IMG/VR virus record: IMGVR_UViG_3300025810_000124
Location: 1-20,080 of that record
Source: a virus
Length of the DNA stretch: 20,080 nucleotides
Reading direction: 5' to 3' (one strand)
Part shown: positions 7,876-18,801 of the stretch, piece after piece
Position numbering within the stretch: the first letter of the stretch is position 1
How the letters are laid out: every line of letters begins with the position of its first letter
Notes under the pieces: generated by a model
What the model saw: the letters and a program-made list of their open reading frames with translations, nothing else
Told to the model about the DNA's origin: nothing
The model's database searches: none
Program-made: the position numbers and the translations under genes

Positions 7876-7920
7876 TCCGCGCTGTGGGCAAGCGCATAAC
7901 AAAGGAGGCCGATCATGGCT
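7876..7920 (+). promoter_or_regulatory. Leader element copy B (before the major tail gene)
   Basis: This is the second copy of the element described at 4605-4649, in the same position relative to the start codon: hairpin-forming GCGCT/AGCGC around a GTGGGCA loop, then AAAGGAGGCC, then four bases to ATGGCT. The stem here is 5 bp; in copy A one pair is lost or shifted. Only the two most abundant virion proteins carry it in this window. Confidence 0.65.
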
Positions 7921-8334
7921 AAACAACTTGGACGCGCCCTGCTGGTGAAGATCGACGATGGCGCGGGAACAAAAAACAATCTTTGCGGTTTAAACTCCAA
8001 ATCGCTGACATTGAACAATTCTAGCATTGATGTGACAACACCAGACTGCACAACACCAGAAGGTGCGCTTTGGACTGAAACACTTGCTGGCCTAAAAAAC
8101 GTATCCGTTTCTGGGGATGGGTTTTTTGAAGATAGCACTGCGGAAGCGCGGATGAATACTGTTGCGATGGCAAATGATAACAGCACTAGCTTTGAAATTG
8201 TTGTTCCTGATTTTGGAACATATGCTGGAACATTTCGCATCGCATCGCTAGAATTTGGCGGTGAGACAGAAGGCGGCGTAACTTATTCATTGTCACTTGA
8301 AAGTTCTGGTGCAGTAACATTTACGGCGGCATAA
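7915..8334 (+). CDS. Major tail (tube) protein, TP901-1 type
   Basis: This is the protein that stacks in hexamers to form the tail tube. The product has 139 residues, a usual length for TP901-1-type tube proteins. It begins KQLGRALLVKIDDG and contains LKNVSVSGDGFFEDSTAEA and an ending of alternating beta strands (TYSLSLESSGAVTF), all typical. It has its own 41-base intergenic leader with a very strong ribosome binding site, consistent with high expression. The next gene is the chaperone, as in other siphoviruses. Confidence 0.93.
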   Translation: MAKQLGRALLVKIDDGAGTKNNLCGLNSKSLTLNNSSIDVTTPDCTTPEGALWTETLAGLKNVSVSGDGFFEDSTAEARMNTVAMANDNSTSFEIVVPDFGTYAGTFRIASLEFGGETEGGVTYSLSLESSGAVTFTAA

Positions 8335-8335
8335 C

Positions 8336-8728
8336 ATGACTATTACGGCTGAAGCGCCGCGTGGAGGTGTTGTTGAATATATCAATGACACCTCTTATGT
8401 TTTCAAACTCAGAAACCGTGAAATAGAACGCTTTGAAGATAAGCATCGCGGTATTTTTGAGCTTTGGGAAGGGTTCTTTGACCGTGGGAAAAAACCATCA
8501 AGCAAAGAAGTCAAAGATATTTTAGCGCTTGGTTTGGTTGGTGGCGGCATGAAAGATCATGAAGCTGATGAAGTTATTTCAAAATCTACGCCTGCTGATT
8601 TAATGAGATTTTATCAAATCGCTCAAGCTGTTGTTGGAATAGCTTTTATGCCTGACATCGCAGAAGGAAATGAAGTAAAAAAAAAGATGACGGACACAAA
8701 CCAAAGCGGCTTGGCGTCCGTGGCCTGA
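8336..8728 (+). CDS. Tail assembly chaperone, short form (lambda gpG-like)
   Basis: This 130-residue protein occupies the place of lambda gpG, between tube and tape measure, and resembles the gene-transfer-agent-type tail chaperones (early VFKLRNREIERFEDKHRGIF, then an acidic/Leu-rich helical body). Such proteins coat the tape measure during assembly and are absent from the finished virion. Translation normally stops at 8726-8728. Near the end, codons for Lys-Lys-Lys (8678-8686) form a slippery site where some ribosomes should move to the -1 frame and make the 194-residue long form. The start follows the tube gene by one base. Confidence 0.88.
   Translation: MTITAEAPRGGVVEYINDTSYVFKLRNREIERFEDKHRGIFELWEGFFDRGKKPSSKEVKDILALGLVGGGMKDHEADEVISKSTPADLMRFYQIAQAVVGIAFMPDIAEGNEVKKKMTDTNQSGLASVA
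8662..8721 (+). promoter_or_regulatory. Programmed -1 ribosomal frameshift signal
   Basis: The heptamer A AAA AAG lies at 8680-8686 in the correct phase for a -1 slip, at the end of a nine-A run. A Shine-Dalgarno-like AGAAGGAAA (8662-8670) lies about 9 bases upstream, as in dnaX-type sites. Downstream, ACGGAC (8690-8695) pairs perfectly with GTCCGT (8716-8721), with an inner CCAA/TTGG pairing (8701-8704 with 8711-8714). The stem is only 3 bases from the heptamer, closer than usual. All three elements are visible; frameshifting in tail chaperone genes is well established. Confidence 0.88.
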
Positions 8729-8919
8729 TTAAAAATGGAATTATTGCGGGGTTAAAGCCGGAAGAAATACGTGATATGATCCCGAAAGATACGTGGATTG
8801 TGTTCCAAGGTTGGTCTGATGCACACTCGCCTAAAAAAGCTGGGTCGGAAGCCATGACCAAGGAACAGTATAAACAACTTGTGGAGCGAGTAGATGGCAA
8901 TCAACGCAGAGCAGCTTAA
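8686..8919 (+). CDS. Tail assembly chaperone, -1 frameshift extension (lambda gpT-like)
   Basis: This is the -1 frame read after slippage, adding 77 residues to the first 117 of the short form (total 194). It runs DDGHKPKRLGVRGLIKNG..., contains PEEIRDMIPKDTWIVFQGW, and ends TAA at 8917-8919. The stretch has no credible start of its own, which fits expression only by frameshift. It fills the apparent gap 8729-8893 and overlaps the tape measure start by 26 bases, as the lambda T frame does with H. In the known system the G-T fusion binds the tape measure through T and recruits tube protein; that role is inferred here. Confidence 0.87.
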   Translation, partial: DDGHKPKRLGVRGLIKNGIIAGLKPEEIRDMIPKDTWIVFQGWSDAHSPKKAGSEAMTKEQYKQLVERVDGNQRRAA

Positions 8920-11038
8920 CATCATTCTCGCAGCGCGTGATAAAGAATTCACGAAAGCAATGGATCGCGCAAATCGAAGAGTTCAAGCATTTGCTTCTAA
9001 ATCGCAAAAAGAATTGAGTGGAGCCTCAATGTCTTTCGATTTGCTGGGCAAGGCGGCTGCGCGTCTTGGTCCTCTATTGGCGGGAGCATTTGCAGTTAGT
9101 GGTTTGCAAAATATTGCTCAATCTGCGATTGATATAGGAAATTTATCAAATGTAGCCGGTGTGTCTGCGGAGAAATTTCAAGGATTAGCATTCGCTGCTT
9201 CTAATTTTGGCGTAGAACAAGATAAGCTGGCTGACATCTTAAAGGATGTTAATGATAAATTTGGAGATTATGTTCAAACTGGTGCTGGACCATTAGCTGA
9301 TTTTTTTGAAAATATTGGTCCGAAAGTTGGTTTGACTGCAAAAAACTTTGCTGATTTGTCATCAGATCAAAAGTTAGGTGCTTACATTAATGCTCTTGAA
9401 AAAGCTAATTTATCGCAAGCTGACATGACATTTTATCTTGAAGCATTAGCTTCGGATGCAACTTTACTGAAAGGTGCTTTTGCTAATAATGGCGCTGAAT
9501 TGGATCGTTTAACAAAAAAATTTAGCGATGCTGGCGCAGTTATGTCACAGGATATGATTAATAAAGCAAAAGAAGCCAAAGAAGAATTTGATTTAGCTTC
9601 AAAAGTTATTTCCGCGCAGTTTAGCATTGCTCTTGCAGATTTATTGCCTGTAATTACTGATCTTGCATCTTTTATTGCAACAGCAGCTTCTAATATTGGT
9701 GTATTTTATGAAGCAATTCAAAAATTAATAAATCCAAATTATGAATTGGAAAAAGCATTAGATAATACAACTCTCGCGATGGGAGATGAAATTAGAGAAA
9801 GTCAAAATCTGGCTATGGCTTTAGGTCAGTCTACAAATATGTCTGTTTCAGCGGCAATTGAAAAACTCAAAGAGGCAAAGCAAAGATATTCAAATGTTGA
9901 AGCAATAATCGCAGAACAAAAAGCCTTAAAATTAGGATCGGATGAATATGAGAAAATTGTTGGAAATATACAAATTTTCAGAGAGGCAATTAATTCGCTT
10001 TCAGTAACTACTGCTGATGGAGCCATTGCAACGGCACAAAATGCAGAGGCTTTGGAAAGATATGAGCAAGGATTAGCTGATGCTCTTGTAAGACAACGTG
10101 ATTTTTTAAAAGCAGAAGATGCGACAGCAGAACAATTAAAAACAACAAAAAGTAATATTAAAATTTTGGAAGATGCTTTGGAAAATGCAGCAAATGGATT
10201 TGTAAGTTTTGGTGATCAAATATTTGAAACAACAGGTTTGACAGCTAGGCTTGATGGAAAACTTAAAGAAGGCCCAATACGTAGCTTGCAGGATTTAGTT
10301 GCGCGTTTAAAAACTGCAAAAGAAAAAGCAGAAGTTTTTAATGATGTAATTTTTGATCCGCGTGATCCGAATTATGATCCAGTGGTTGCAGAATTTGCAC
10401 GTTTGCAAATGGGTCTTGATGCTGTTGGAGAGTCTGGTCAAAAAGCTACTGATAAGATTTCTGAAGGGTTCAATAAAATAAAAGAATTATCCCCAGAAAT
10501 GCAGCGTCTTAACTCAATCATGCAAGGTGTGGAAAGTTCTATGGAGCAAGCATTTATGTCTATGTTCGATGGAACAACATCTGCAAAAGACGCATTTAAA
10601 GCAATGGCATCTGATATAATAAAAGAGCTATATAGAATTTTTGTTGCTAAGCAGGTCACTGGATTTATTACTGGGGCTGTATCTTTATTTTCTGGCGGCT
10701 CTTTGATTGGATTCGGTAGCGGCATGGGTGGTGGCAGACCTGCGCCAGATATTCCTAGAAGAGCAATGGGCGGTCCTGTTTCTGCTGGCTCTCCTTATCT
10801 TGTCGGTGAACGTGGTCCAGAGCTTATAGTTCCTAATCGTAGCGGCACTGTAATACCGAATAATCAGCTTGGCGGTGGCACAGTAGTTGTCAATCAAACG
10901 ATTAATGTTTCTACTGGTGTGCAGCAAACAGTAAGAGCAGAAATAAAAGGCTTGATGCCTCAGATAGCAGAAAGCGCAAAGGCTGCTGTATCGGACGCTA
11001 AGAGGCGTGGTGGATCATATGGAAGGGCGTTTGCATAA
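8894..11038 (+). CDS. Tail tape measure protein
   Basis: This protein sets tail length and is held in the tube lumen until ejection. The product has 714 residues; by the usual rule of about 0.15 nm per residue this predicts a tail near 107 nm. It is largely helical, with heptad-like stretches (about 285-350 and 390-430) and hydrophobic segments at about 50-75, 249-272 and 588-615 that may insert in host membrane. The C-terminal signature GGPVSAGSPYLVGERGPELI (about 625-645) with IVPNRSGTVIPNN is common in siphovirus tape measures. No peptidase or lysozyme domain was recognised. GTGGAG precedes the start. The stop overlaps the next start (TAATG). Confidence 0.94.
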   Translation: MAINAEQLNIILAARDKEFTKAMDRANRRVQAFASKSQKELSGASMSFDLLGKAAARLGPLLAGAFAVSGLQNIAQSAIDIGNLSNVAGVSAEKFQGLAFAASNFGVEQDKLADILKDVNDKFGDYVQTGAGPLADFFENIGPKVGLTAKNFADLSSDQKLGAYINALEKANLSQADMTFYLEALASDATLLKGAFANNGAELDRLTKKFSDAGAVMSQDMINKAKEAKEEFDLASKVISAQFSIALADLLPVITDLASFIATAASNIGVFYEAIQKLINPNYELEKALDNTTLAMGDEIRESQNLAMALGQSTNMSVSAAIEKLKEAKQRYSNVEAIIAEQKALKLGSDEYEKIVGNIQIFREAINSLSVTTADGAIATAQNAEALERYEQGLADALVRQRDFLKAEDATAEQLKTTKSNIKILEDALENAANGFVSFGDQIFETTGLTARLDGKLKEGPIRSLQDLVARLKTAKEKAEVFNDVIFDPRDPNYDPVVAEFARLQMGLDAVGESGQKATDKISEGFNKIKELSPEMQRLNSIMQGVESSMEQAFMSMFDGTTSAKDAFKAMASDIIKELYRIFVAKQVTGFITGAVSLFSGGSLIGFGSGMGGGRPAPDIPRRAMGGPVSAGSPYLVGERGPELIVPNRSGTVIPNNQLGGGTVVVNQTINVSTGVQQTVRAEIKGLMPQIAESAKAAVSDAKRRGGSYGRAFA

Positions 11039-12251: not shown

Positions 12252-12643
12252 ATTCTTATTTATCATGGGCAAGTGATAAGCCATTTGAGTGGGGCAAACA
12301 TGATTGCCTTACTTTTACCAATAACGCATTTCACGCAATGTATGGTGAAGGTTGGGCTGATGATTGGCTTGATAGGTACATGAAGGATGGAGTACCTATG
12401 AGGCGGGATCAATTAAGGAAAGAGTTTGGTTTTTCTAGCTTTATCTCTGCTGTTGATGCTAGATTGCAGAGGGTTAAGCACATTCCTCCTTTGGGTGGTC
12501 TGGTTTTGACTAAAAGAGCGCAGCGTTGGGTTATTGGTGGTGCAATGGGTATCTGTACGGGTGCGAAGGCAGTTTTCTTATCCAAGGAAGGTATGATATA
12601 CTTGCCCTTAGATTACATTCATCAAGCATGGGTTAGGGCATGA
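12230..12643 (+). CDS. Tail tip protein, NlpC/P60-like (DUF6950-type, lambda K position)
   Basis: This 137-residue protein carries WASDKPFEWGKHDCLTF near the N-terminus; the W-G-x-x-D-C core with Cys26 matches small phage tail proteins related to NlpC/P60 cysteine peptidases (I believe DUF6950). Such proteins sit just before the J-like gene, may be needed for tip assembly, and may cut peptidoglycan stems during DNA entry. A classical downstream catalytic His is not obvious, so activity is uncertain. The start lies inside the previous gene but has AAGGA 6 bases upstream. The stop overlaps the next start (TGATG-type). Confidence 0.72.
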   Translation: MGTRESLNSYLSWASDKPFEWGKHDCLTFTNNAFHAMYGEGWADDWLDRYMKDGVPMRRDQLRKEFGFSSFISAVDARLQRVKHIPPLGGLVLTKRAQRWVIGGAMGICTGAKAVFLSKEGMIYLPLDYIHQAWVRA

Positions 12644-15600
12644 ATAGATATAAATTAGGCGACTTAACCCTTAAAAGCTTCAATAGCTGGGATCGTGTTC
12701 CGCGTATGCCAGAAGTGTTTATTGCGGCAGTAGGAGCTATTGCACCAGCTTTGGCTGGAACAACAGCAGCTACTGTTATTGGTTATGTAGCCTACACAGC
12801 CGTAACATCATGGGCGTTGCAAGCCCTTGCGCCTAAACCTGATTTTGGAACTGGATCATCTGCTGGCCTATTGGTTAATAGTAAAGATGTCTCTGCACCG
12901 CATGATTTTGTGTACGGTGAAATCAGAAAAGGCGGTGTTGTTACTTTCTACGAAAGCACAGGCACAGATAATAAATACTTGCACCAAGTCATTGTACTTG
13001 CTGGGCATGAATTAAATAGCATTGGCGATATTTATATTAATGATCAAATCGCTTCAATTGATGCCAATGGCTTTGTTAGTGTAGCGGGTACAGGTGATGA
13101 GCAAGTAAATTATAACAGCAAAATCCGTATTAAGAAGCATGATGGTTCTCAGACAACAGCAGATAGTGATTTAGTTAGTGAAACCTCTGTTGATAGCAAT
13201 TTTGTTGGTAATGGTATTGCTTATCTTTATGTCAGGTATGAATACGATCAGGATGTATTTCCAAATGGCTTGCCATTAATTACAGCAAAGGTTCAAGGCA
13301 AGAAGGTCTATGACCCAAGATCAGCATCAACTGCTTATTCCAATAATGCTGCGCTTTGTATTCGTGATTTTATTGCATCCTCTTATGGATTAAATGATAG
13401 CAGCATAGATGATACGTCATTCCAAGCTGCTGCAAATGAGTGCGATGAAAGTGTCACATTGAGTGGTGGTGGGTCTGAAAATAGATATACGATCAATGGG
13501 GTTGTAAGGGCAGACCGCTCTGTTGGTGATGTACTTCAAAGCATGACAACAGCTTGCGCAGGGACACTTTTCTGGGGCGCTGGGGCATGGAAGCTCAAGG
13601 CGGGTGCATATTCATCACCAGTTAAAACACTGACGCTGGATGACCTGCGTGGACCTATCTCGCTAGATACGCGAATTAGTATGAGAGACAACTTCAACAC
13701 TGTCTCAGGTACATTTATTGATGCAAATCAAGACTATATAACGGCAGATTATCCACAAATTACAAGCGCAGCTTTCAAGGCAGAAGATGGCGGCGAAGAG
13801 GTTAAATTAGATTTAACTTTACCGTACACCACAAGTGCAGCGACTGCCCAGAGACTTGCTAAATTGACGCTTTTTCGCGGTCGTGAGCAAATGACGCTTT
13901 CTGCTGATTTTGGCTTAGAGGCATTTGAGATTGAAGTTGGCGACATTATAGCATTCACCAATGCGAGATATGGTTTTAGTGCAAAAGAATTTGAGGTCAT
14001 TGGCTGGCGATTAGCGGCAAATCAAGATGCTGGTGATTTAAGGATTAATCTTACGCTCCGCGAAACATCATCCGCTGCATTTGATTGGAACGCAGAAGAA
14101 ACGGCTATTATATCCAATAATACAACATTACCACAATTTCGCACTGTTGCAGCGCCAACTAGTCTATCTCTTACAGCAACAGCAGTAATTAATGATGATG
14201 GTATAACTATTCCAGCTATACGCGCTGATTGGACTGCGGCTGTTAATGCTTTCGTTCATCATTATGAGGTGCAATTTAAGCGTCTTGGCGGTTCAGAGGA
14301 CTATGGATTAGTTAATACCACTTATACTGAGCAAGAAAACTGGGGCAGCATTGCAGATGCGTTGGATGAAACCAGCGAAGATTATGGATTAACGAATGAG
14401 GAAATTTTAGATGCTGACGCTGAATTTGTTTCCGCATTCACTACGACCACATCATTCTTAATACAGCCTGTTCTAAACGGGTATGATTATCAGGTCAAAG
14501 TACGTGCTGTATCTGCGCTTGATGTCAGATCGACTTTTGTTACTGCCACGCTTGCCTCTGAGGGGGATACTGATCCACCCAATGAGCCTCTTAGTTTAGC
14601 TGCTGTTGCGGGGTCTAAGTACATTGAATTGTCATGGACTAACCCAGCGGATCAGGACTTGAGCCATATTGAAATATGGGAGAATACAACAAATAATCTC
14701 GCAACTGCGTCACTTATTGGCTCATCTGGCAGTAGTAACTTCTTTCGCGGCAATCTGGCGAACAATGTCACGCGATACTATTGGGCAAGAGCGGTTGACC
14801 TGTCGCTCAACAAGTCAGACTTCACGTCTAGCGTAAATGCGACTACATTGCTTATTACACCTAATGACTTCAATGATGCAGTCAACGATCTATTTCAAGA
14901 GGCGGGTGCGTTTGGTATTGAGCCAGTAAGCAGCTTGCCAGCATCTGGTGACTTTGATGGTCAGCTTGTTCTGCTGTTGCCTGACATTACAATCTATCGT
15001 TGGGATGATGCAACTTCATCATGGTCAACTGATATTTATACAGCCTCACAGGTTGAAGCGGGGTCTATTGGTTTTGCATCATTTGCATCAGGTATTGAAC
15101 CTGTTGGCGTTGTGTCTAGCTTACCAACTGTATCAGGTTATACTGGCCCACAGGTTGTTATACTTACAACTGACGGCAAGATTTACCGATTAGTCAGTGG
15201 CGCATGGACGACTGCTGTATCTACACTTGATTTATCTGGTACGCTTCCAGAAGATATTTTTAGCGACGATCTACGTCCTATTGAGCGCGTATCAGCATTG
15301 CCAACGACCAACTTGACGCAGGGTAGAGTTGTTCTGTTGACAACAGATAATAAGCTGTACCGCTATACAGGTAATGCTTGGACTGCCGCAGTTCCAACCA
15401 CTGATTTAACAGGTCAGATTGCAAGTGGTCAGATTGCGGATGCAGCTATTACAGCAACTAAAATCGGCAATGATGCTGTCACGACTGCTAAAATTGCGGT
15501 TGGTGCAATTACATCGACAGAGCTAGGCGTAGATGCAGTCACATCCGCTAAGATCGCCAACTCAGCTATTACAGCAGCCAAGATTGGAAATGATGCAGTC

Positions 15601-17091
15601 ACAAGTGCTAAGATCGCAAATGATGCTGTAACTGCTGACGTTATTGCAGCAGGGGCTATCACAGAAACTAAGATCGCAGCAGATGCAGTGACAACTGCTA
15701 AAATTGCAGCTAATGCTATCACTGCTTCAGAGATTGCTGCTGGCGCAATTACGTCAAATGAGATTGCTGCAAATACCATTACGGCGGGTGAGATAGCAGC
15801 GGGGGCTGTGACAGCATCTGAAATAGCAGCGGGTGCTGTTACGACAGGTAAACTTGCTGCTGGTGCAGTTACGGCAAATGAAATTGCTGCTGACGCTATC
15901 ACTACAGAAAAGATTGCAGCGGGAGCCGTCACAGCGGCAGAAATTACTGCTGGGGCTATTACCACTGCTAAAATTGCGGCAGGGGCAGTCACGGCTGCTG
16001 AAATCGCTGCTGGTGCAGTTGTTGCTGGAAAGATAGCAGCGAATGCGGTTACAGCTACAGAAATAGCAGCGAATACTATTACATCCTCAGAGATTGCTGC
16101 TGGGGCTATCACGGCAAATGAAATTGCAGCTAATACTATAACGGCTGGAAAGATAGCAACTAATACAATAACAGCAAATGAGATAGCTGCTAATACTATA
16201 ACTGCGTCACAACTTGCAGCTAATACTATTACGGCGAATGAGATAGCTGCTGATACCATTACAGCCAATGAATTAGCCGCAAATTCTGTTGGCACGTCAG
16301 AATTGATTGCTGATAGTGTAACGGCAGGTATTATTGCTGCTGGTGCGGTTAGTACGTCTGAACTAGCGGCTGACGCAGTAACAGCAGAAAAGATTGCCGC
16401 TGGTGCAGTTGTGGCTGAGAGCATTGCGGCGAACGCCATCACATCAGCCAAGATCGGCACGGATCAGGTTACGGCGAATAAGATTGCGGCATCATCTATT
16501 ATTACGTCCAAGATCGCCACAGGTGCCGTTACGGCGGCTAAGATTAGTGTAAGCGAACTATCAGCAATCAGTGCTGACTTAGGTACAATTTCGGTTGACA
16601 GTGCGCACATTGATGATGCGGCGATTACATCAGCTAAAATCGCAGACACCATTCAGTCTGATAATTATTCTGCGGGTTCGGCTGGTTGGCGTATTAAGAA
16701 AGATGGTTCTGCTGAATTTAACGGTGTTGTCATTTCGCGTCAGTTACAAGTGGACAGTGGCAGCTATAGCGCGGGGAATATTGGAGGTACAACCAATGAT
16801 GACCCAACTGAAGTAACTCCATTCTATATTCAAACAAACATCAATGTTTCTGCTTGGGCTGGCACAAATAAAACTTATCTCGTTGCGATTGGAAACAGTG
16901 GGTCTGTGACTGCTTTAACGAGTGATGTGACTAATAATCCTACAACGGTCCGTTGGGGTTTTCGTGGTGATATTGTTCCACTCACACAGTGGTCAGGAAC
17001 TGCGAAGCTTTGGATTAAAGTCACGCCTACAATTTCAAATGTGGTGAGCACAAACTTGACCCTGAGTTGGAAGGTTTACGAGGTAACATAA
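12640..17091 (+). CDS. J-like central tail tip / host specificity protein with FN3 domains and repeats
   Basis: This is the central tip protein that should contact the host receptor (lambda gpJ role). The product has 1483 residues. Residues about 24-65 form a hydrophobic Ala/Val/Ile segment like that of lambda gpI, suggesting an I-J fusion. Residues about 75-490 are the tip core, including a Phage-tail_3-like region (around NRYTINGVVRADRSVGDVLQ). Two fibronectin type III-like domains follow (about 506-640 and 642-739); the first holds three D/N-Y/W-G motifs at 553, 566 and 580. Three copies of a 60-residue unit with a V-x-L-x-T-D-x-K-x-Y-R core start at 761, 820 and 882. Residues 936-1305 are 37 ten-residue repeats. 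The end (GWRIKKDGSAEFNGVVISR, then a beta domain) resembles DUF1983-type tips. Confidence 0.92.
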   Translation: MNRYKLGDLTLKSFNSWDRVPRMPEVFIAAVGAIAPALAGTTAATVIGYVAYTAVTSWALQALAPKPDFGTGSSAGLLVNSKDVSAPHDFVYGEIRKGGVVTFYESTGTDNKYLHQVIVLAGHELNSIGDIYINDQIASIDANGFVSVAGTGDEQVNYNSKIRIKKHDGSQTTADSDLVSETSVDSNFVGNGIAYLYVRYEYDQDVFPNGLPLITAKVQGKKVYDPRSASTAYSNNAALCIRDFIASSYGLNDSSIDDTSFQAAANECDESVTLSGGGSENRYTINGVVRADRSVGDVLQSMTTACAGTLFWGAGAWKLKAGAYSSPVKTLTLDDLRGPISLDTRISMRDNFNTVSGTFIDANQDYITADYPQITSAAFKAEDGGEEVKLDLTLPYTTSAATAQRLAKLTLFRGREQMTLSADFGLEAFEIEVGDIIAFTNARYGFSAKEFEVIGWRLAANQDAGDLRINLTLRETSSAAFDWNAEETAIISNNTTLPQFRTVAAPTSLSLTATAVINDDGITIPAIRADWTAAVNAFVHHYEVQFKRLGGSEDYGLVNTTYTEQENWGSIADALDETSEDYGLTNEEILDADAEFVSAFTTTTSFLIQPVLNGYDYQVKVRAVSALDVRSTFVTATLASEGDTDPPNEPLSLAAVAGSKYIELSWTNPADQDLSHIEIWENTTNNLATASLIGSSGSSNFFRGNLANNVTRYYWARAVDLSLNKSDFTSSVNATTLLITPNDFNDAVNDLFQEAGAFGIEPVSSLPASGDFDGQLVLLLPDITIYRWDDATSSWSTDIYTASQVEAGSIGFASFASGIEPVGVVSSLPTVSGYTGPQVVILTTDGKIYRLVSGAWTTAVSTLDLSGTLPEDIFSDDLRPIERVSALPTTNLTQGRVVLLTTDNKLYRYTGNAWTAAVPTTDLTGQIASGQIADAAITATKIGNDAVTTAKIAVGAITSTELGVDAVTSAKIANSAITAAKIGNDAVTSAKIANDAVTADVIAAGAITETKIAADAVTTAKIAANAITASEIAAGAITSNEIAANTITAGEIAAGAVTASEIAAGAVTTGKLAAGAVTANEIAADAITTEKIAAGAVTAAEITAGAITTAKIAAGAVTAAEIAAGAVVAGKIAANAVTATEIAANTITSSEIAAGAITANEIAANTITAGKIATNTITANEIAANTITASQLAANTITANEIAADTITANELAANSVGTSELIADSVTAGIIAAGAVSTSELAADAVTAEKIAAGAVVAESIAANAITSAKIGTDQVTANKIAASSIITSKIATGAVTAAKISVSELSAISADLGTISVDSAHIDDAAITSAKIADTIQSDNYSAGSAGWRIKKDGSAEFNGVVISRQLQVDSGSYSAGNIGGTTNDDPTEVTPFYIQTNINVSAWAGTNKTYLVAIGNSGSVTALTSDVTNNPTTVRWGFRGDIVPLTQWSGTAKLWIKVTPTISNVVSTNLTLSWKVYEVT
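14920..15417 (+). repeat. Three tandem ~60-residue units in the J-like protein
   Basis: Units begin at 14920, 15097 and 15283. Each reads roughly I/E-P/R-V-S-x-L-P, a short loop, G-x-x-V-x-L-x-T/P-D-x-x-I/L-Y-R, then S/G-x-W-x-T/A-A. The DNA copies have drifted but the protein pattern is kept, so the units are old and selected. They join the FN3 region to the ten-residue repeats and probably form small beta modules. Confidence 0.8.
15445..16554 (+). repeat. 37 tandem 30-bp (10-residue) repeats in the J-like protein
   Basis: The region holds 37 consecutive ten-residue units in perfect phase, consensus A-[IV]-T-A-x-[EK]-I-A-A-[GND]. Nearly all differences between units are synonymous or conservative; for example units 25 and 27 differ at 5 of 30 bases. 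This means selection on the protein pattern rather than a recent expansion. Such repeats are known in tip proteins of environmental phages and probably make a long thin trimeric stalk. The 30-bp period could still allow length change by recombination. Confidence 0.95.
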
Positions 17092-17295: not shown

Positions 17296-18801
17296 ATGAC
17301 AAAACAGGTTCAACGTCGAAGAGGCACAGCCACGCAGCACACGTCTTTCACGGGTGCAGAGGGCGAACTTTCAGTCAATACAACCAACAAATCTGTTCAT
17401 GTGCATGATGGAGCAACGGCTGGCGGGATTGAACTTGCTAGAAAAGACGGATCAAATGTTGCGTTTACGTCAGGCACTCTTGATGGTGTAACAATAGGTG
17501 GAACAACGGCTGGCGCGGGTACGTTTACCAACCTAACAGCCACAGGCACGACAACCTTAGCTGGCGCTAGTACATCCGCAGATATTACCTTCGGCGACAA
17601 CGACAAAGCCATCTTCGGCGCTGGGTCTGATTTGCAGATTTACCATGATGGGTCTAATAGTTATATTGATGATGTAGGCACAGGTGACCTTCGTATTCGA
17701 GGTGGAAACGACATCCAAATTCGTACACCAGACGATGAAAATTATATTGTTTGTAATCAAAATGATAGCGTTCAGCTCTTCTTCGATGCGGCACCCAAAC
17801 TCGCCACCACCAGCACAGGCGTAGACATCACGGGTACTTTGACCAGCGATGGGCTGACAATGGCGAGTGGAAGTCAAGCGGTTATTGGTGTGTTTGGAAC
17901 AAGCGGCTTGCAGCTTATAGGTCAGACGGGAAGCGATAACATTGTAGGCACGATGGGTCCGTCTGAGCCGTTAATATTTAGAACTTCATCATCAGAACGC
18001 ATGCGTATCGACAGCAGCGGTAATGTTGGGATTGGAAACTCGTCACCTTCAAGCTATCACTCCCCAGCAGACAATCTAGTTCTTGGGTCTAGTGGTGACA
18101 ATGGCTTAACCATTGTAAGCGGCACTTCTTCTGGCGGTACTATTTGTTTTGCTGACGGAACATCTGGTGGAGCGCAATACGCAGGATTTATAGATTATCA
18201 GCATAATGGCGATTATATGCGTTTTGGCACTAATATTGGTACAGAACGCATGCGCATCGACAGCAGTGGTCGTGTTATGATCAACACCACAACGCAAAAA
18301 GGCTATTTAACTGTAAATAACAATGGAAACAACACAGGTATTTTCATTGACCAAACAAGTTCCACAGTAAATCAAATCCCGTTAAATATAAAGAGTGCTT
18401 ATGCAACAGGTGGTCAGACTGCGGTTATGACACGTTTCTTAAACACATCTGATGCAACCGTTGGAACAATCGAATCAACAACATCATCAACATCTTACAA
18501 CACCACGTCCGATTACCGCCTAAAAGAAAACGTGGTTGAACTGACAGGCGCAACTAATCGTCTTAAGCAGCTAGAGCCAAAGCGTTTCAACTTCATTGTT
18601 AATCCAGACACAACCGTTGATGGCTTCATTGCGCACGAAGTTCAGTCGGTTGTTCCAGAAGCAATCACAGGCACACACAATGAGGTCGATGACGATGGTA
18701 ACCCTGTCTACCAAGGCATTGACCAAAGCAAGCTAGTGCCACTCTTGGTCGCTACAATCAAAGAACTAGAGGCACGGATTACTGCCTTAGAAAACGCCTA
18801 A
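17296..18801 (+). CDS. Tail fibre with C-terminal S74 intramolecular chaperone
   Basis: This is a trimeric fibre, probably receptor-binding. The product has 501 residues. Residues 1-50 (VQRRRGTATQHTSFTGAEGE, then KSVHVHDG) form the attachment module seen at the N-termini of many phage fibres (Mtd_N-like). Residues about 60-390 are a Gly/Ser/Thr-rich beta shaft with widely shared marine-phage modules (IGGTTAGAGTFTNLTATGTT, LQIYHDGSNSYIDD) and two copies of ERMRIDSSG. Residues 405-501 are a Peptidase_S74 domain with the Ser405/Lys410 dyad (SDYRLKEN) and an expected self-cut just before Ser405, releasing a 97-residue chaperone after trimer folding. The last helix (LVATIKELEARITALENA) is a coiled coil. 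GGAG precedes the ATG. Confidence 0.94.
   Translation: MTKQVQRRRGTATQHTSFTGAEGELSVNTTNKSVHVHDGATAGGIELARKDGSNVAFTSGTLDGVTIGGTTAGAGTFTNLTATGTTTLAGASTSADITFGDNDKAIFGAGSDLQIYHDGSNSYIDDVGTGDLRIRGGNDIQIRTPDDENYIVCNQNDSVQLFFDAAPKLATTSTGVDITGTLTSDGLTMASGSQAVIGVFGTSGLQLIGQTGSDNIVGTMGPSEPLIFRTSSSERMRIDSSGNVGIGNSSPSSYHSPADNLVLGSSGDNGLTIVSGTSSGGTICFADGTSGGAQYAGFIDYQHNGDYMRFGTNIGTERMRIDSSGRVMINTTTQKGYLTVNNNGNNTGIFIDQTSSTVNQIPLNIKSAYATGGQTAVMTRFLNTSDATVGTIESTTSSTSYNTTSDYRLKENVVELTGATNRLKQLEPKRFNFIVNPDTTVDGFIAHEVQSVVPEAITGTHNEVDDDGNPVYQGIDQSKLVPLLVATIKELEARITALENA
17995..18270 (+). repeat. Direct repeat of 27 bases in the fibre gene
   Basis: The 27 bases coding for ERMRIDSSG occur at 17995-18021 and 18244-18270 with two silent differences. 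They lie 249 bases (83 codons) apart in the same frame, so recombination between them would give an in-frame shortening of the fibre shaft. This motif is frequent in fibres of environmental phages. Confidence 0.8.

Follow-up and report, generated by a model that had tools for sequence, protein, structure and literature searches.

A nine-adenine run conserved in all codon phases points to RNA-polymerase slippage in a phage tail-chaperone family, probably interchanged with ribosomal frameshifting

Introduction

Frameshifting in tail-assembly chaperone genes is a textbook case of programmed ribosomal slippage. In phage lambda, a short form (gpG) and a -1-extended form (gpGT) are encoded between the tail tube and tape measure genes, and in 2004 Xu, Hendrix and Duda reportedly described a conserved tail chaperone frameshift in dsDNA phages. 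The gene transfer agents (GTAs) of Rhodobacterales encode two chaperone domains, PF11836 in g10 and PF09550 in g10.1. In the GTAs that we read, the second domain mostly forms a protein of its own. Its ATGA start overlaps the stop of the first gene in most of the seven GTA loci read in detail, and none of the seven showed a slippery A run close to that stop. Among the Rhodobacteraceae GTA loci L397-L404, which mostly feature the ATGA overlap, L403 and L404 differ.

A ribosomal -1 shift at the heptamer A_AAA_AAG needs six, seven or eight A before the G in codon phases 2, 1 and 0, respectively. RNA-polymerase slippage on an A run usually inserts one nucleotide; occurring within the 9-10 bp RNA:DNA hybrid, it predicts a run-length requirement that is independent of frame. 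Homologs of dnaX illustrate both routes: E. coli RNA polymerase slips efficiently at nine A, and Thermus thermophilus dnaX uses such slippage (PMC5009743), whereas E. coli dnaX uses ribosomal A_AAA_AAG. In Shigella mxiE/spa13, and in bacterial IS elements that use 9A/9T slippage, some transcripts gain an inserted base that joins two ORFs into a longer protein. Baranov 2005 considers a 9A run of conserved length among homologs to be a sign of purposeful slippage (PMC1088944).

We here compare these systems with a tail-chaperone locus from a 20,080-base virus record (the window, meaning the whole stretch analysed) and with its relatives.

Results

Two forms of the chaperone

The window carries an HK97-type structural module (terminase, portal, S78 prohead protease, capsid, connector, tail terminator and tail tube), followed by a PF11836 chaperone and then the tape measure (Table 1). 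The chaperone scores 35.4 bits against a gathering cut-off of 27.8. Its 0 frame stops at TGA (8726-8728). In the -1 frame, no stop codon occurs from 8674 until the TAA at 8917-8919, and the +1 frame is closed by TGA at 8688. A ribosomal -1 shift and the insertion of one A lead to the same frame, and the shifted product is 194 aa long (117 + 77).

An earlier note on this DNA had proposed a hidden -1-frame product between tail tube and tape measure. We recover the same coordinates, heptamer, length of 194 residues and 26-base overlap, and the likeness that it drew to lambda G/GT is borne out by the shared position and by the short and -1-extended forms; ordinary gene calling would, as it also claimed, miss the fusion product. 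The heptamer A AAA AAG, which the note named as the slippage site, does sit in X_XXY_YYZ phase, yet it is only the tail of a nine-A run, and it is the run that forms the conserved unit.

Table 1. Features at the tail-chaperone locus of the window.
Feature	Positions	Strand	Evidence
Major tail tube protein (PF06199 Phage_tail_2), lying 5' of the chaperone	7915..8334	+	Pfam E 9e-28
Short tail-assembly chaperone, 0 frame, 130 aa (PF11836 Phage_TAC_11 / GTA-gp10)	8336..8728	+	Pfam E 1.2e-8; PHROG 8985 tail E 3e-10
AAGGA Shine-Dalgarno-like tract 5' of the run, probably incidental	8664..8668	+	Seen in sequence
A9 run, proposed slippage site	8677..8685	+	A9 kept in relatives, phases 0/1/2
A_AAA_AAG heptamer closing the A9G run, in phase for ribosomal slippage	8680..8686	+	Phase checked
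Stem ACGGAC (8690-8695) / GTCCGT (8716-8721)	8690..8721	+	Unconserved; fold z -0.25
C-terminal extension in the -1 frame (77 aa, then TAA); probable divergent PF09550 (Phage_TAC_6) / GTA g10.1-like domain	8686..8919	+	Profile, hhalign, codon bias
Tail tape measure protein; its first 26 nt are shared with the extension	8894..11038	+	PHROG 2854 E 4e-72

Relatives and selection on the extension

Relatives were sought from N-domain seeds, from the extension and in Rhodobacteraceae genomes. A DNA-level search of phage records gave no match; at the protein level, the N domain matched only Rhodobacter phage RcapNL, and the extension alone matched nothing. Genome scanning with the C domain as query returned no relative, and scanning with the N domain returned 16 loci, 15 of which include the C domain. 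At locus L174, the C domain is not recognisable. Both domains are present in 173 distinct loci from IMG/VR, Rhodobacteraceae prophages and RcapNL, and the median pairwise identity among the relatives' proteins is 47%.

In 171 of these loci, the C domain is read in the -1 frame; the other two encode both domains fused in a single frame. Judging from the sequences, the recurrence of this frame and of a slippage site in nearly all 173 relatives is far beyond chance; alignment of relatives, set beforehand as a possible refutation of the earlier proposal, kept both the site and the open -1 frame. Within a fixed C-domain block from 101 loci with a phase-2 A9, codon positions 1, 2 and 3 of the -1 frame account for 24, 12 and 64% of the differences, the expected signature of coding under selection.

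The window's own 77 residues have no Pfam match, PF09550 included. Across the family, 12 of 63 members match PF09550 (best E 6.4e-6), and the family profile can be aligned with the g10.1 proteins of GTAs from Rhodobacteraceae (93.5% by hhalign, E 2e-7). The C domain also aligns with RcapNL gp16 (hhalign 95.6%, E 1e-8), and PF11836 and PF09550 matches are adjacent in all eight genomes checked. By these profile comparisons, the extension is probably a divergent member of PF09550 (Phage_TAC_6) and the counterpart of GTA g10.1, a domain previously unannotated in many marine phages. AlphaFold models the C domain as four helices (pLDDT 83) and the N domain with pLDDT 86; neither model has a significant structural match in the PDB, nor did a sequence search of the PDB give one.

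A run of fixed length in all codon phases

Of the 171 -1-frame loci, 152 carry A9 (prophages of GH2-2 and Sulfitobacter HI0040 are of this type), three carry A10 and none carries A8 or a run longer than A10, counts that come from uneven sampling in which one marine clade supplies many of the A9 loci. A heptamer is present without a run in 15 loci, and one, L254, has no recognisable slippage site: its C domain is in the -1 frame, yet the short overlap contains neither an A run nor a classical heptamer. Exactly A9 also preceded the extension in nearly all of the first 80 relatives, and an independent C-domain search found A9 in 52 of 52 distinct loci.

The 152 A9 runs occupy every codon phase (phase 2, 108 loci; phase 0, 39; phase 1, five). 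Among the first relatives with a phase-2 run, the lysines are preceded by codons for different amino acids (GTA, TCA, GCA, TTA, ATA, ACA), all of which end in A. All A9 runs, whatever their phase, include an in-phase A_AAA_AAA, and those in phase 0 lack A_AAA_AAG. The AAG itself is dispensable, because the base after the run is C in six A9 loci and T in one A10 locus.

Such runs are avoided elsewhere in the same DNA: the remaining 914 kb of these loci contain 39 A7 and 12 A8 runs and no run of nine or more A, versus 10-19 expected from dinucleotide shuffles. Length conservation among homologs, the sign of purposeful slippage described by Baranov 2005, thus extends here to all three phases.

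Heptamers, in-frame fusions and switches

The 15 run-less loci carry an in-phase heptamer instead, A_AAA_AAG in 13 and G_GGA_AAG in two, and obey the phase rule for ribosomal sites, with A6 in phase 2 and A7 in phase 1, plus G_GGA_AAG. The lambda-type G_GGA_AAG is found, in phase and at the homologous place, in two Rhodobacteraceae prophages (L164, 4339-4345, and L250); the prophage of Pararhodobacter marinus uses this heptamer.

The two in-frame fusions are a locus with A10 in the DNA (L054) and phage RcapNL with A7, although either sequence could include sequencing errors. These lengths are as expected if the long form needs one additional A (or two fewer). RcapNL gp16 (L082, 2501-3073; NC_020489) contains the same N and C domains in one 190-residue protein, with 43% identity in the N domain; its run is nine minus two, which gives the long form with no shift, though its nearest relatives carry A9. 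The A7 possibly reflects a mutation, a sequencing error or a reversed use of slippage that makes the short form.

A protein tree was built from 113 representatives; it was a quick build with many weak branches, which makes all counts of switches approximate. On this tree, run and heptamer changed places at least seven times (eight after long branches were removed and the tree was rebuilt), and the phase of A9 changed at least nine times (seven with long branches removed). Within the family, the solutions thus include A9, ribosomal heptamers of two kinds and in-frame fusion, and the separate start in GTAs is a further one.

Stem and Shine-Dalgarno tract

The earlier note had interpreted the site as a dnaX-like ribosomal signal with a Shine-Dalgarno (SD) tract upstream and a stem downstream. 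This part of its reading is not supported: neither element is conserved, and the invariant A9 is independent of codon phase. The window's stem begins after a 3-nt spacer, compared with the 5-9 nt of a conserved dnaX-like 3' structure, and its downstream stretch folds no better than shuffles. In 56 equally spaced relatives, all six pairs form in only eight and three or fewer form in 28, which does not support a conserved stem as ribosomal stimulator. The partial excess of pairing at this position (3.7 versus about 2 of 6 in slid controls) may arise from conserved VR codons. SD-like 5-mers precede the run in 15 of 152 A9 relatives (control 3.7%), and RNA structure by group is weak (phase-2 A9, z -0.36 downstream and -0.15 upstream; heptamer group, -0.85 downstream). 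Neither stem nor SD tract appears to be needed in most relatives.

Discussion

We propose that this gene yields two chaperone forms in the manner of lambda G/GT, and we consider it probable that RNA polymerase, by adding one A at A9, gives rise to the fusion. The short form would be read directly from the gene. Polymerase slipping on the run would insert one A and produce an A10 message, in which normal translation passes from the 0 frame into the extension. The resulting long form, likely the minority product, would carry the GTA-g10.1-like domain at its C-terminus and, by analogy with lambda GT, presumably connect tape measure and tail tube during assembly. We infer RNA polymerase as the slipping machine from the comparison of run length and phase. 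The run length that a ribosome requires varies with phase, because the heptamer must be in phase; the retention of A9 in all phases therefore points to the polymerase and is a better fit to its slippage than to a ribosomal site of the X_XXY_YYZ kind. The extension, moreover, always lies in the frame to which a single-nucleotide insertion leads.

A possible but distinctly less likely account is that ribosomes make a programmed -1 shift at A_AAA_AAG and/or A_AAA_AAA, in the style of lambda G/GT and E. coli dnaX, with A9 acting as tandem slippery heptamers. It draws on the in-phase A_AAA_AAG of the window and the in-phase A_AAA_AAA of every A9, on the relatives with a classical heptamer alone at the same place, and on the use of ribosomal shifts by tail chaperones of other phages (PMC5009743). 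Host tRNAs also leave room for it. A second tRNA-Lys(CUU) that would disfavour ribosomal slippage is absent from the one prophage host checked, G001 (GH2-2), where tRNA-Lys(UUU) is the sole lysine tRNA among 47 tRNAs, as in E. coli. The two-tRNA-Lys argument made for Thermus is inapplicable to this host, and its ribosomes could slip on A_AAA_AAG. However, a ribosomal shift does not predict a length of nine in all phases, as A6-A8 would be enough depending on phase and A8 is absent. Phase-0 runs lack A_AAA_AAG, and neither stem nor SD tract is conserved.

Ribosomes might otherwise slide on the homopolymeric stretch in a length-dependent, heptamer-independent way, and such sliding would likewise follow length rather than phase. 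E. coli ribosomes do slide where AAA codons follow one another, and three lysine codons are enough to give truncated product (PMC4363877). The process is described, however, as unprogrammed, as lacking a single outcome and as robust at A11 (PMC4363877), and a phase-2 A9G offers just two full AAA codons ahead of AAG; we regard sliding as very unlikely here.

The C domain could also be a separate protein with an internal start, like GTA g10.1, whose homologous domain is mostly its own ORF at the ATGA overlap. An ATG does occur in the C frame before the core in 106 of 139 phage loci, but an SD-like tract precedes such a start in only one of the 139. ATG, GTG and TTG are all missing there in the window and in 24 further loci (in the window, the first is no earlier than extension residue 31), both RcapNL and L054 carry the fusion as a single frame, and A9 would be left unexplained, all of which makes an internal start highly improbable. 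That the frame break is a sequencing artefact or a decayed gene is hardly credible: homopolymers are error-prone, and L054 and RcapNL are in frame, but the identical A9 recurs across 152 distinct loci, which come from numerous separate metagenomes as well as isolate genomes, and the C domain is under purifying selection.

Returning to polymerase slippage, we favour, though a little more guardedly, a broader view of the family. Its marine and Rhodobacteraceae phages would use RNA-polymerase slippage at an invariant A9 that has been exchanged at least seven times for ribosomal heptamers, and GTAs would use an overlapping start. A single gene family that switches between transcriptional slippage and ribosomal frameshifting is the best reading of the sequences compared here.

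Set against the described systems, the window's branch shares position and two-form coding with lambda but is fixed on a phase-free A9, and its domains are PF11836 and a PF09550-like one. Phage and GTA share these two domains in the same order; as the GTA encodes two proteins, the phage fusion joins them. The two alternatives known from dnaX homologs appear within one phage gene family, although the shift gives the shorter product in dnaX and the longer one in the window. Shigella mxiE/spa13, like the IS elements, gains a longer protein, but these are not tail chaperones, and slippage in Shigella is backed by experiments, whereas here it is proposed from sequence. As far as we could find, the domains and the principle of a short and a long chaperone are known, and the slippage element and its interchange are new; our search, which covered open-licence literature only and is therefore weak evidence, turned up no previous description of a tail chaperone that relies on transcriptional slippage.

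If the proposal is correct, the textbook example of ribosomal slippage gains two interchangeable mechanisms, and the ratio of short to long chaperone would be set at transcription, where it could respond to host polymerase and nucleotide pools. The family would then offer a natural series in which control of a single protein ratio passes interchangeably between transcription and translation, and a testable evolutionary one comprising A9, ribosomal heptamer, in-frame fusion and separate start. For annotators, it adds a C-terminal domain that has gone unannotated in many marine phages.

Other genes of the window

Two genes downstream of the tape measure merit description. A 1483-aa tail protein (12640-17091) contains a long degenerate array of ITAxEIAAGAVT-like repeats (about 15733-16265), and the array gives rise to a spurious 343-aa antisense ORF (15429-16460). 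The 501-aa protein at 17296-18801 combines an N-terminal Mtd (major tropism determinant) domain with a C-terminal Peptidase_S74 endosialidase chaperone, and is probably a receptor-binding protein with a self-cleaving chaperone.
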